This document shows positions 19,864-30,561 of a stretch of DNA of 64,000 nucleotides, in pieces. Both the position numbers and the translations under genes were made by a program. The DNA comes from Robertmurraya dakarensis (GTDB taxonomy: Bacteria; Bacillota; Bacilli; Bacillales; Cytobacillaceae): NCBI RefSeq assembly GCF_900156875.1, contig NZ_LT707409.1:183122-247121 (forward strand), read 5' to 3'. Numbering within the stretch: the stretch's first letter is position 1; every line of letters starts with the position of its first letter. The notes beneath the pieces are model-generated. The model saw only the letters and a program-made list of their open reading frames with translations, had not been told where the DNA came from and did no database searches.

Positions 19864-20033
19864 TTCTTATCCAGAGTGGTGGAGGGACAGGCCCGATGAA
19901 ACCCGGCAACCATCAAGACAATCGTATTGTCTTGAACGGTGCTAATTCCTGCAAAGGTGCAAGCCTTTGAAAGATGAGAAACGTATGATATCATACGGCC
20001 TCTCTTTCATGAAAGAGAGGTCTTTTTACTGGA
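19864..20033 (+). promoter_or_regulatory. SAM-I (S-box) riboswitch with terminator
   Basis: All conserved S-box blocks are present in order: CTTATCCAGAG, GGTGGAGGGA, GGCCCGATGAAACCCGGCAA, GGTGCTAATTCCTGC, then TGAAAGATGAG closing helix P1. A terminator follows at 19998-20031 (CCTCTCTTTC / GAAAGAGAGG, then TCTTTTT). When SAM is plentiful the terminator should form and switch off the gene at 20059; when methionine/SAM is low the gene is expressed. Confidence 0.95.
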
Positions 20034-28118: not shown

Positions 28119-28279
28119 TTGGTGTATTGTATATTGATAAAGTAGATAGAAAATAATCGATTGAATCTATATTACGAATGAAAGAAAAAATAGATTGATG
28201 ATAAAATTCAATATATGTGTGTCTCATGCACCTGCAAAAAGAGATACATATACCAAAGAATAATATTGAGGTGGAGAAC

Positions 28280-28618
28280 GTGAAGAATAAAGTTATTTTG
28301 CTAGCATCAGATCAGCTTGGAAAAGGGGAAAAGGAATTAGGAGAAGGAATTTTAGAAACCTTTTTTACGATTCTTAAGCAAAAGGAAGAATTGCCTGCTG
28401 CTGTTTTTTGCATGAACAGAGGGGTGTTTGCTTTGACAGAATATTCGCTTGTTTCTCTTCAATTAAAGGAATTGGAAGAAAAAGGTGTTGATATTCTAGC
28501 TTGTAAAACATGTGTAGACTATTATGAGCTGGAGGATAAGCTTGCAGTTGGAGAAATCAGCGGGATGGCACAATTTATTGAGCTGGCTTCTAAATATGAG
28601 GTTATGACACTCTCATAA
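28280..28618 (+). CDS. DsrE-fold selenium/sulfur-relay protein (YedF C-terminal-domain type)
   Basis: This 112-residue cytoplasmic protein starts at the GTG directly behind GAGGTGGAG; upstream in-frame codons lack a site. The opening KVILLASDQLGKGEKELG, the FCMNRGVF segment and the two cysteines of ACKTCVDYY match the DsrE-like half of YedF, a protein linked to selenium metabolism. In many YedF proteins this half is fused to a TusA domain; here a TusA-like gene stands two places downstream instead. It probably relays persulfide or selenide to that protein. It is the first gene of the selenium cassette. Confidence 0.8.
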   Translation: MKNKVILLASDQLGKGEKELGEGILETFFTILKQKEELPAAVFCMNRGVFALTEYSLVSLQLKELEEKGVDILACKTCVDYYELEDKLAVGEISGMAQFIELASKYEVMTLS

Positions 28619-28664: not shown

Positions 28665-29891
28665 ATGAAAGTATACAATAAAATCTTTAAGGAGTATTGG
28701 AACCCCTATGTGGCGATTAGTATTGCCGGGCTGCTGAGTGCTTTGTATTTTGGCATAACTGGGACCGTTTGGGCCGTAACCGGAGAGTTTACTAGATTAG
28801 GGGGCCATATCTTGCAGTGGTTTGGCGTAGATGTGTCAGGCTGGGATTATTTCGAACTCATCGGTATCCAGGGATCGCCTATTAGTCGAACAGATGGTTG
28901 GATTGTCATTGGGATGCTAGTTGGGGCATTAATGATGATCCTACTCAGCGGCAGTTTTAAAATTCGGATGCCAAAACAAAAGCGGCGCATTGTGCAAGGT
29001 TTTATCGGGGGAATTATCGCTGGCTTTGGTGCGCGGCTCGCAATGGGCTGTAACTTAGCTGCCTTTTTTACTGGTGTTCCGCAATTTTCATTTCATGCAT
29101 GGATTTTTATGTTGACGACTGCAATTGGTACATATTTCGGAGTAAAGGTAGTCAATACAAAATGGTGGCTTGGGAAACCGAACCTGCAAAGAAGTAAGGG
29201 GAAAAGAGTGGCAGTAAAGAAGAATGCTAACAAAACCAATATACAGCCGATTTTAGGTTTGATAGTAGCATGCGTTTATTTAGGAATTATTGTGTACTTT
29301 TTCGCAGCAGGCAAGACTCTTTTAGCAGTTGGAGCAATTGCGGGAGCTGCATTTGGTATTTTAATTGAACGCGGACAAATCTGCTTTACATCTGCTTTCC
29401 GTGATATGTGGATCAGCGGCCGTGCAGTCATGTCAAAAGCAATCGCTGTTGGGATGATGGTCAGTGTCGTCGTTACTTTTATTCATATTCAGACCGGTAC
29501 AATGCAGATTATTAAAATGGCGGCTCCAAGTACAGTAATTGGCGGCCTGTTATTCGGATTCGGAATCGTTCTTGCGGGAGGCTGTGAAACAGGAATGATG
29601 TATCGTGCAATGGAAGGACAAGTGCTGTTCTGGATTGTCGGGGCAGGGAATATTGTCGGAGCAACCTTGCTGTCCTACGGATGGGACCACCTAGGAATCT
29701 TTAATGCGCTTGCAGAAGGCTGGCCGGCCGTTAATTTAGTAGTAGAGTGGGGACCGGCTGGAGCGTTAGTGGGAACATTGGCGATGTTAGTTCTCTGGTT
29801 CTTATTCTCGAACTGGTGGGAAAAACGATTCCGTTATGGTACTGGGATCAAGCAGGCAGAAAGACAACATTTCGCACCAAAGGAGGTATAA
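28665..29891 (+). CDS. YeeE/YedE family membrane protein (FdhT-like selenium/sulfur transporter)
   Basis: This 408-residue protein has about ten hydrophobic segments. Two copies of a Gly-Cys motif, ARLAMGCNLAAFF and LAGGCETGMMY, are typical of the YeeE/YedE fold, where cysteines pass thiosulfate or a selenium species through the membrane. In Campylobacter a YedE protein (FdhT) and a TusA protein (FdhU) are needed to make selenium-dependent formate dehydrogenase. The start lies behind AAAGGAGATG. The TusA-like gene begins 3 bases after its stop, with the ribosome site inside this gene. Confidence 0.85.
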   Translation: MKVYNKIFKEYWNPYVAISIAGLLSALYFGITGTVWAVTGEFTRLGGHILQWFGVDVSGWDYFELIGIQGSPISRTDGWIVIGMLVGALMMILLSGSFKIRMPKQKRRIVQGFIGGIIAGFGARLAMGCNLAAFFTGVPQFSFHAWIFMLTTAIGTYFGVKVVNTKWWLGKPNLQRSKGKRVAVKKNANKTNIQPILGLIVACVYLGIIVYFFAAGKTLLAVGAIAGAAFGILIERGQICFTSAFRDMWISGRAVMSKAIAVGMMVSVVVTFIHIQTGTMQIIKMAAPSTVIGGLLFGFGIVLAGGCETGMMYRAMEGQVLFWIVGAGNIVGATLLSYGWDHLGIFNALAEGWPAVNLVVEWGPAGALVGTLAMLVLWFLFSNWWEKRFRYGTGIKQAERQHFAPKEV

Positions 29892-29894
29892 GTT

Positions 29895-30140
29895 TTGTCA
29901 CAAGAATTTGAAATTGATTACACGTTAGATATTCGCGGCGAGCCTTGACCATACCCAGTCATTTATGCGCTGGATGCGCTAAAAACGATGAAAATCGGGG
30001 AAGTATTAGAGGTCATTGCAGACTGTCCGCAATCCTTCCGCAGTGTGCCGGAAGAAGCAGTCAAACATGGTTATGAGCTGGTCACCGATCCGGAAAAGGA
30101 CGGGCAGGATATCTATTTTTATATTAAAGTAATAAAGTAA
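29895..30140 (+). CDS. TusA/SirA/FdhU-like protein with in-frame TGA: probable selenoprotein
   Basis: The frame starts at TTG 29895 (AAGGAGG 9 bases upstream) and runs 81 residues to the TAA at 30138, interrupted only by TGA at codon 18 (29946-29948). The product reads LDIRGEP-X-PYPVIYALDAL, where X is the invariant Cys of the TusA CPxP motif. The rest is a complete TusA fold (GEVLEVIADCPQSFRSVPEEA). A stem-loop suitable as a SECIS begins 13 bases after the TGA. With YedF- and YedE-type genes immediately upstream, X is most likely selenocysteine. The alternative is a point nonsense mutation (TGC or TGT to TGA). Nothing else in the frame has decayed. Confidence 0.85.
29962..29983 (+). promoter_or_regulatory. 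Candidate bacterial SECIS element
   Basis: TTTA, one bulged T, GCGC, apical loop TGGAT, GCGC, TAAA forms a hairpin. The first loop G (29972) is 24 nt after the TGA, inside the distance used by bacterial SelB elements, and the loop carries two G as in E. coli fdhF. It lies within the coding sequence, as bacterial SECIS elements do. Confidence 0.6.
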
Positions 30141-30183: not shown

Positions 30184-30561
30184 AAAATAAGGTGAGAAAT
30201 CGTAGTGATTTTCTCACCTTATTTTTTTGGCAAACGCACGGTCAGTCATATAGTAAATAATAACCCGCGAATAGACTGTGTTAAAAAATAAAGGGAAAAA
30301 TTCCGTTTAAATTGGGAGATATCTATATTTCCTAAAAATTAAGGGGAGTTTTTCCCTTTATATGATTGGAACCTTTTGGTTTTTCCTTAATTTAGAGAGG
30401 ATAGCGGGAATTTCTCCTCTTATTTCTGCCTCATAAGCTCACTTTTATACAATAGCGGGAAATTCTACCCCTAAAAAGCATGGCAAATTTTATATACAAA
30501 TTACCATGCTTTTTCGTAAGTTATTTAATCTGTTTTTCACTTATTGCACTTGAAAAGAGTT
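30184..30561. repeat. Long dispersed repeat, copy 1 (terminator hairpin plus four palindromic cores)
   Basis: The element begins with the hairpin AAGGTGAGAA / TTCTCACCTT and a T run (30184-30229), which also terminates the selenium operon. Four palindromic cores follow, near 30293 (GGGAAAAATTCC), 30343 (GGGGAGTTTTTCCC), 30405 and 30456, spaced about 50, 62 and 51 bp. The end block has AAGTTATTTAA and TTGAAAAGAG. A diverged copy with the same order and spacing is at 43885-44206. It carries no convincing reading frame. Confidence 0.8.

Follow-up and report, generated by a model that had tools for sequence, protein, structure and literature searches.

YedF (PRK11018/NF008242), a family named for selenium metabolism, is the nearest described match to the protein reported here, which shares the GEP-[C/U]-PYP and DCPQS motifs of the family and scores above its cut-off but differs in that a predicted selenocysteine (Sec) replaces the CPxP cysteine and is accompanied by a predicted SECIS element. 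While in YedF of the TIGR03527 type a DsrE-like domain follows the TusA domain, here the DsrE-like protein has its own gene, which yedE separates from tusA. A further comparison is with Campylobacter jejuni, whose FdhU we take to be a TusA-like protein paired with FdhT; Shaw et al. 2012 are said to have reported that FdhT and FdhU control the biogenesis of selenium-dependent formate dehydrogenase in this organism. Our locus has YedE in common with that system (FdhT, by the NCBIfam model) but a predicted Sec at the CPxP position, and the parts of the literature available to us describe no Sec version of FdhU. In the YeeD/TsuB and YeeE/TsuA thiosulfate uptake pair, a TusA-like protein likewise adjoins a YeeE/YedE-family membrane protein, and the CPxP cysteine of YeeD is the catalytic centre of a partner that YeeE requires for uptake (PMC11073785; papers cited by PMC number are represented here by parts of their text). 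The corresponding scores of our proteins, however, are far below the cut-offs of the models of this pair (32.5 of 147.5 bits for the TusA protein with the TsuB/YeeD model NF041048, 118.9 of 400 with the TsuA model), and the families involved here are tied to selenium, with the residue in question predicted to be Sec.

As for selenoproteins of the same pathway, YeeE/YedE (GUxSG), DsrE-like proteins (UxxC) and SelD likewise carry Sec in place of Cys and are pathway neighbours of the protein described here, but belong to different families. The 2022 catalogue of selenoproteins (87 families, PMC9312934) and the 2026 catalogue (119 families, PMC13188914) include YedE, DsrE-like and rhodanese selenoproteins and have no TusA/SirA/YedF entry. 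Full-text literature searches, which leave most subscription journals uncovered and returned papers in part, yielded no description of a Sec-containing TusA, SirA or YedF, and no Sec form appears in the passages available of papers on SirA-like/YedF proteins (PMC2432076, PMC5322559, PMC4607533). The protein is most suitably regarded as a Sec form of YedF and as a predicted selenoprotein family outside both catalogues, with a function that we infer.

A YedF-type gene with one in-frame TGA

The gene lies in the 64,000-nucleotide stretch of Robertmurraya dakarensis DNA that was analysed as a whole (the window). The locus comprises the following features.

28280..28618, + strand: gene for a DsrE-like protein resembling the C-terminal half of YedF (TIGR03527 positions 85-186)
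28665..29891, + strand: yedE/fdhT, putative selenium transporter of the YeeE/YedE family, 408 aa (NF033796, 4.9e-171)
29880..29887, + strand: Shine-Dalgarno sequence of tusA, AAGGAGGT, within the 3' end of yedE
29895..30140, + strand: tusA/yedF-type gene, 81 residues, with predicted Sec18 (UPYP motif) and Cys44 (DCPQS)
29946..29948, + strand: in-frame TGA, codon 18, predicted selenocysteine codon at the CPxP cysteine position
30184..30228, + strand: probable transcription terminator, a hairpin followed by a run of T (-19.5 kcal/mol, z -6.70)

The original prediction, made from the window alone, was of an intact TusA-like frame with a ribosome-binding site and a normal stop, damaged only by a TGA, and this is what we find: translation would start at a TTG eight bases after GGAGG and end at a TAA, and the 81-codon frame in between is interrupted once, at codon 18, in the context RGEP*PYP. 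The TGA was also said to occupy the place of the only, catalytic cysteine of the family; the assignment to the CPxP cysteine stands, but the protein has a second cysteine, Cys44 of the DCPQS motif, which is almost invariant in the alignment. Two Sec forms, in Mesobacillus zeae (L060:1317-1553) and Bacillus mediterraneensis (L061:6383-6619), are without the DCPQSF cysteine and have a cysteine four alignment columns later instead (PQSC and ANSC, respectively), as if the second cysteine had to stay near the Sec.

With the TGA read as a residue, the product belongs to the TusA family (Pfam TusA, 5.6e-21, 74.6 bits, cut-off 28.6), while FdhU-like, as in the original label, is a loose description, the curated model that it passes being that of YedF (NCBIfam PRK11018, 2.2e-32, 110.5 bits, cut-off 79). 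All 32 aligned members match PRK11018 at E up to 0.001. The model of TusA proper (PRK00299) gives 34.4 bits, below its cut-off of 78, and TIGR03527, which describes TusA and DsrE domains in one protein (cut-off 110), is missed both by the TusA protein (25.8 bits) and by the separate DsrE protein (107.2 bits). The best sequence match in the PDB is 1je3 (1.4e-19), presumably the structure of E. coli YedF. Downstream of the UGA the gene is under purifying selection, with a median dN/dS of 0.07 and a highest value of 0.47 in the 36 usable of 68 pairs, hairpin codons excluded.

The tusA gene adjoins yedE

The order on the + strand is the DsrE-like gene, yedE, tusA and the probable terminator, which is missing from the list of the consensus terminator scanner. 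The yedE product scores 569 bits with its NCBIfam model (cut-off 350), and for the DsrE-like gene we chose a GTG start, the mechanical open reading frame beginning at 28217. Elsewhere in the window, a SAM riboswitch is found at 19864-19980 (RF00162, 91.5 bits).

Adjacency to yedE is close to universal, being seen in 135 of 138 Sec and Cys loci (records that partly repeat one another); two of the three others are cut at the edge of the locus and one is a second tandem copy. DsrE, considered as an obligatory neighbour, was rejected as such, because a tblastn search within the loci found the gene in only 6 of 29 well-flanked 8-kb loci, either before yedE or after tusA. The yedE-tusA pair adjoins genes of the Sec machinery in two lineages: selB lies upstream of it in Siminovitchia fortis, selA precedes it in Brevibacillus massiliensis (L104), and selB follows it in L171 (genome G474), whose TusA protein is identical to that of L104.

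Two further arrangements were noted. In a Neobacillus (L037 and L080; N. piezotolerans in the named record), yedE seems disrupted, being in two pieces with a TAA stop, while the Sec-type tusA is intact and may thus persist there after the loss of yedE. Two copies of Sec-TusA, about 2.4 kb from each other, occur in one genome (L136, G022:C1:4114775-4115002), and no yedE was found in the 1.5 kb upstream of the second.

The genome encodes the machinery for selenocysteine

If the UGA at codon 18 is translated, it would be decoded by SelB and tRNA-Sec under the direction of a SECIS hairpin. The genome (5.48 Mb in 11 contigs) has a tRNA-Sec with a UCA anticodon, SelB (362 bits, cut-off 242), SelA (565 bits, cut-off 268) and a selD with one in-frame TGA. 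It also encodes two formate-dehydrogenase-alpha-like proteins whose UH motif contains a TGA; one exceeds the cut-off of TIGR01591 and the other falls short of it. With selA, selB, tRNA-Sec, selD and these formate-dehydrogenase-like TGA sites in the same genome, Sec decoding is expected to be active. Likely further selenoproteins, in the region L159:8893-9816 and in L122 and L126, are SelD and the two formate-dehydrogenase-alpha-like proteins.

A conserved hairpin follows the UGA

Downstream of the TGA, the coding sequence can fold into a hairpin.

29962..29983, + strand: predicted SECIS hairpin UUUA-U-GCGC-UGGAU-GCGC-UAAA, apical loop 29971-29975, 22 nt after the UGA

According to the parts available of PMC13188914, bacterial SECIS elements have a loop of 3-9 nt with a G in its first two positions, an upper stem of at least 4 bp, a distance of 16-37 nt from the UGA and an energy of -7.5 kcal/mol or lower. 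The tusA hairpin has a 5-nt loop (UGGAU) with G in position 2, 4 bp above the bulge (8 in total) and a spacing of 22 nt. Its folding energy straddles the published limit, at -7.3 kcal/mol for 31 nt and -9.6 for 42 nt, and it is only modestly better than shuffled sequences (z -1.31 and -2.14, respectively). The loop, UGGAN among Sec forms, differs from the GGUCU loops of the two formate-dehydrogenase-like sites in the same genome. The window hairpin alone is borderline in energy and modest against shuffles; the case for a SECIS element rests on comparison.

For this comparison we used the 61 distinct Sec sequences from 117 of 118 TGA loci (L075 being too short), which share the consensus UUUA-U-GCGC-UGGAN-GCGC-UAAA. 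The four upper pairs are kept in 244 of 244 cells, five of them double changes: the compensatory variant ACGC/GCGU occurs in four sequences and GCAC/GUGC in one, where the pair is kept at the price of a change from DAL to DVL. At the second pair of the lower stem, 39 sequences have UA, 8 have GC, 2 have CG and 2 have a wobble, while 10 are unpaired. When the eight pairs are taken together, 95.7% of cells are paired, against 91.7% in shuffles (none of 500 as high) and at most 58.2% when the structure is slid along the alignment, and changes on both sides of a pair number 17 cells against 3.7 in shuffles. By one covariation measure, the number of further pair types, 63 of 500 shuffles equalled or exceeded the observed count, and RNAalifold recovered the upper but not the lower stem, proposing another helix on the 5' side. 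A model built from the Sec sequences (R1) matches the window with 67.9 bits by construction, and reaches at most 23.4 bits in Cys loci, which reflects shared coding sequence.

Among 20 distinct Cys sequences, the upper pairs are present in 28 of 80 cells, with no sequence having all four, and over the whole structure 56.9% of cells are paired, no better than in shuffles. Three of the four upper pairs are present in one Cys homologue (L189, from G408, a genome with selB), possibly as a relic of a former SECIS or as an effect of high G+C.

Constraint on the hairpin is also visible in the choice of synonymous codons. Codons +7 to +10 read GCG, CTG, GAT and GCG in 63 of 64, 69 of 69, 63 of 63 and 68 of 68 codons for the same residue, that is, with one synonymous exception in 264 core hairpin codons of 69 unique genes, in contrast to the Ala at +24, which uses all four codons, and to the Ala, Leu and Asp codons elsewhere in the gene, which vary freely. 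The comparative data indicate that the hairpin after the UGA is in all likelihood a SECIS element.

TGA and cysteine codons alternate at the CPxP position

Homologues were collected from a family sample of 193 genomes and a class sample of 398, the genome studied here being counted in both. Of the 85 loci read, codon 18 is TGA in 65, TGT or TGC in 20, and TAA or TAG in none; on these sequences, TGA at the CPxP codon is far beyond chance. One locus (L180) had been flagged for a TGA that lies elsewhere, and is in fact a Cys form. The family search gave 48 TGA copies in 47 of 193 genomes, each at the exact codon, and the YedF-type Cys version in eight; matches of about 30% identity were taken as ordinary TusA paralogues and excluded. 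In the class sample, 18 of 398 genomes have the TGA form and 13 a stop-free homologue, 12 of which were read as Cys, the other (G451) being left out of the reading as it came without a locus. On a protein tree of 85 rows, which has few resolved forks (77 columns), at least three changes between Sec and Cys are needed, and a Cys form (G382) adjoins the Sec form of Aneurinibacillus terranovensis.

The TGA form tracks selB. All 47 TGA-bearing family genomes have selB, against a background of 170 of 193 (hypergeometric p=0.001), as do 17 of 18 class carriers, against 85 of 398 overall (p=1.5e-11; selB called at E up to 1e-70), while selB is present in 3 of the 13 stop-free class genomes (Sec versus stop-free, p=6e-5). 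In the family sample, selB is likewise present in each of the eight genomes with the Cys form, so the possibility of using Sec does not make it a requirement. The one TGA carrier in which no selB was found above the cut-off (G296, 100% complete by markers) has a selD that also carries a TGA, and therefore a gap in the assembly at selB is likely.

A pattern scan of one genome per species (84,980 species) returned 73 loci, of which 20 were chance matches outside tusA and were removed before counting. All names among the 53 genuine loci are Bacillota: Neobacillus, Mesobacillus, Robertmurraya, Cytobacillus, Schinkia, Siminovitchia, Litchfieldia, Calidifontibacillus, Alkalihalobacillus, Aneurinibacillus and Brevibacillus, together with Bacillus species or MAGs. 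Three loci of the genus to which the window belongs encode TusA proteins identical to those at named R. massiliosenegalensis, R. siralis and R. yapensis loci. The pattern required RGEPUPYP with TGA, and hence misses PFP and EGEP variants and is uninformative on the share of Cys forms. Phages had no tusA match at E 1e-8, and the 21 plasmid records found at E 1e-12 are all below 60% identity.

A standard reading of the gene sees an open frame of only 17 codons, as would be expected of a TusA gene inactivated by a plain nonsense mutation or of a sequencing error. This explanation is refuted by the occurrence of TGA to the exclusion of TAA and TAG, by the low dN/dS downstream of the TGA, by the codon-level constraint on the hairpin and by the many genera that share the TGA form, and we give it practically no credence. 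Reading of the UGA as Trp, Cys or Arg by a near-cognate tRNA, without selenium, would likewise yield a full-length product and could accommodate G296, but is very improbable: TGA carriage follows selB, a conserved hairpin stands at SECIS spacing with its codons constrained, TGA is the only stop at the site, and the 20 stop-free loci read have Cys there rather than Trp or Arg. General readthrough was rejected on these grounds.

The locus has an in-frame UGA with conserved coding sequence on both sides, selA, selB, selC and selD in the same genome, and Cys in homologues, features by which bacterial selenoproteins are recognized. The original prediction had named the four sel genes as a check, and all are present (tRNA-Sec with a UCA anticodon, selD itself with a TGA); it had expected Cys and TGA to alternate among homologues, which they do, and had held that a TGA peculiar to this strain would count against it, when in fact dozens of species share it. 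Its proposal of a probable selenoprotein is borne out by the machinery, by the Sec/Cys alternation and by the conserved, covarying SECIS-type hairpin. We conclude, with high confidence for a reading drawn from comparison of sequences, that tusA very probably encodes a selenoprotein, a YedF-type TusA in which UGA codon 18 is decoded as selenocysteine.

A proposed role in selenium handling

That the protein is a selenium relay made only when selenium is available is a reasonable proposal from gene context and analogy. TusA(Sec) would bind YedE on its cytoplasmic side, in the way that YeeD (TsuB) docks on YeeE (TsuA), and Sec18 would take over the selenium species that comes in, in the form of a Se-Se or Se-S adduct; on the analogy with YeeD, we rate these two steps slightly better than an even bet. 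Cys44 and, where present, the DsrE-like protein may then help to release the selenium and pass it towards SelD, the receiver, itself a predicted selenoprotein here. In this scheme the acceptor is built with selenium, and hence a cell would need some selenium in order to capture more. The complete route, in which Sec18 carries selenium from YedE as a perselenide or selenosulfide and Cys44 with the DsrE-like partner relays it to a Sec-containing SelD, is put forward tentatively, its chances being somewhat short of even. SirA-like/YedF proteins have been linked to SelD (PMC2432076, PMC5322559, PMC4607533, as far as the available parts go).

The protein could instead be a selenoprotein in which Sec18 serves redox defence, or selenium export or detoxification together with YedE, rather than acquisition. 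Lin et al. 2015 suggested export of excess selenium as a possible function of YedE, and a part in selenium-related redox processes as one of YedF (PMC5322559), and redox proteins are believed to make up the majority of the uncharacterised selenoproteins (PMC13188914). Furthermore, deletion of yedE in Methanococcus maripaludis had no clear selenium phenotype or loss of selenium use, with a mild effect in the presence of oxidised selenocysteine (PMC11097638), and dependence of its synthesis on selenium would be fitting for a safety valve. However, the close analogue YeeD/YeeE is an uptake pair in which the CPxP cysteine is critical (PMC11073785), UPYP is not a UxxC redox motif, and the yedE transcript of M. 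maripaludis rises upon selenium starvation (PMC11097638). We consider a redox or export role a serious possibility, though one less likely than not.

Alternatively, the UGA and its SECIS could act mainly as a selenium-sensing switch, with 17 residues made at low selenium and the full protein when selenium is plentiful, the purpose being regulation rather than chemistry. The position of tusA, last before a strong terminator hairpin, would make polarity harmless, with DsrE and YedE, encoded upstream, still being made. Yet the Sec falls exactly at the reactive residue of the family, and selenium-dependent translation is common to all selenoproteins, so no separate purpose is needed; a switch is accordingly an unlikely explanation.

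Implications

Under the standard reading of UGA, dozens of genomes carry the Sec-type tusA as a 17-codon fragment. Reading it as we propose adds the TusA/SirA/YedF sulfur-carrier family, whose reactive residue carries the chalcogen, to the predicted selenoproteins, and would mean that selenium is a building block of a protein which is itself connected with selenium handling. Through its link with yedE, the Sec protein would also offer a handle traceable with 75Se. If the proposed relay from YedE to SelD is true, selenium assimilation in these bacteria would be self-reinforcing, and the missing route of delivery from the membrane to SelD would be encoded in one small operon.
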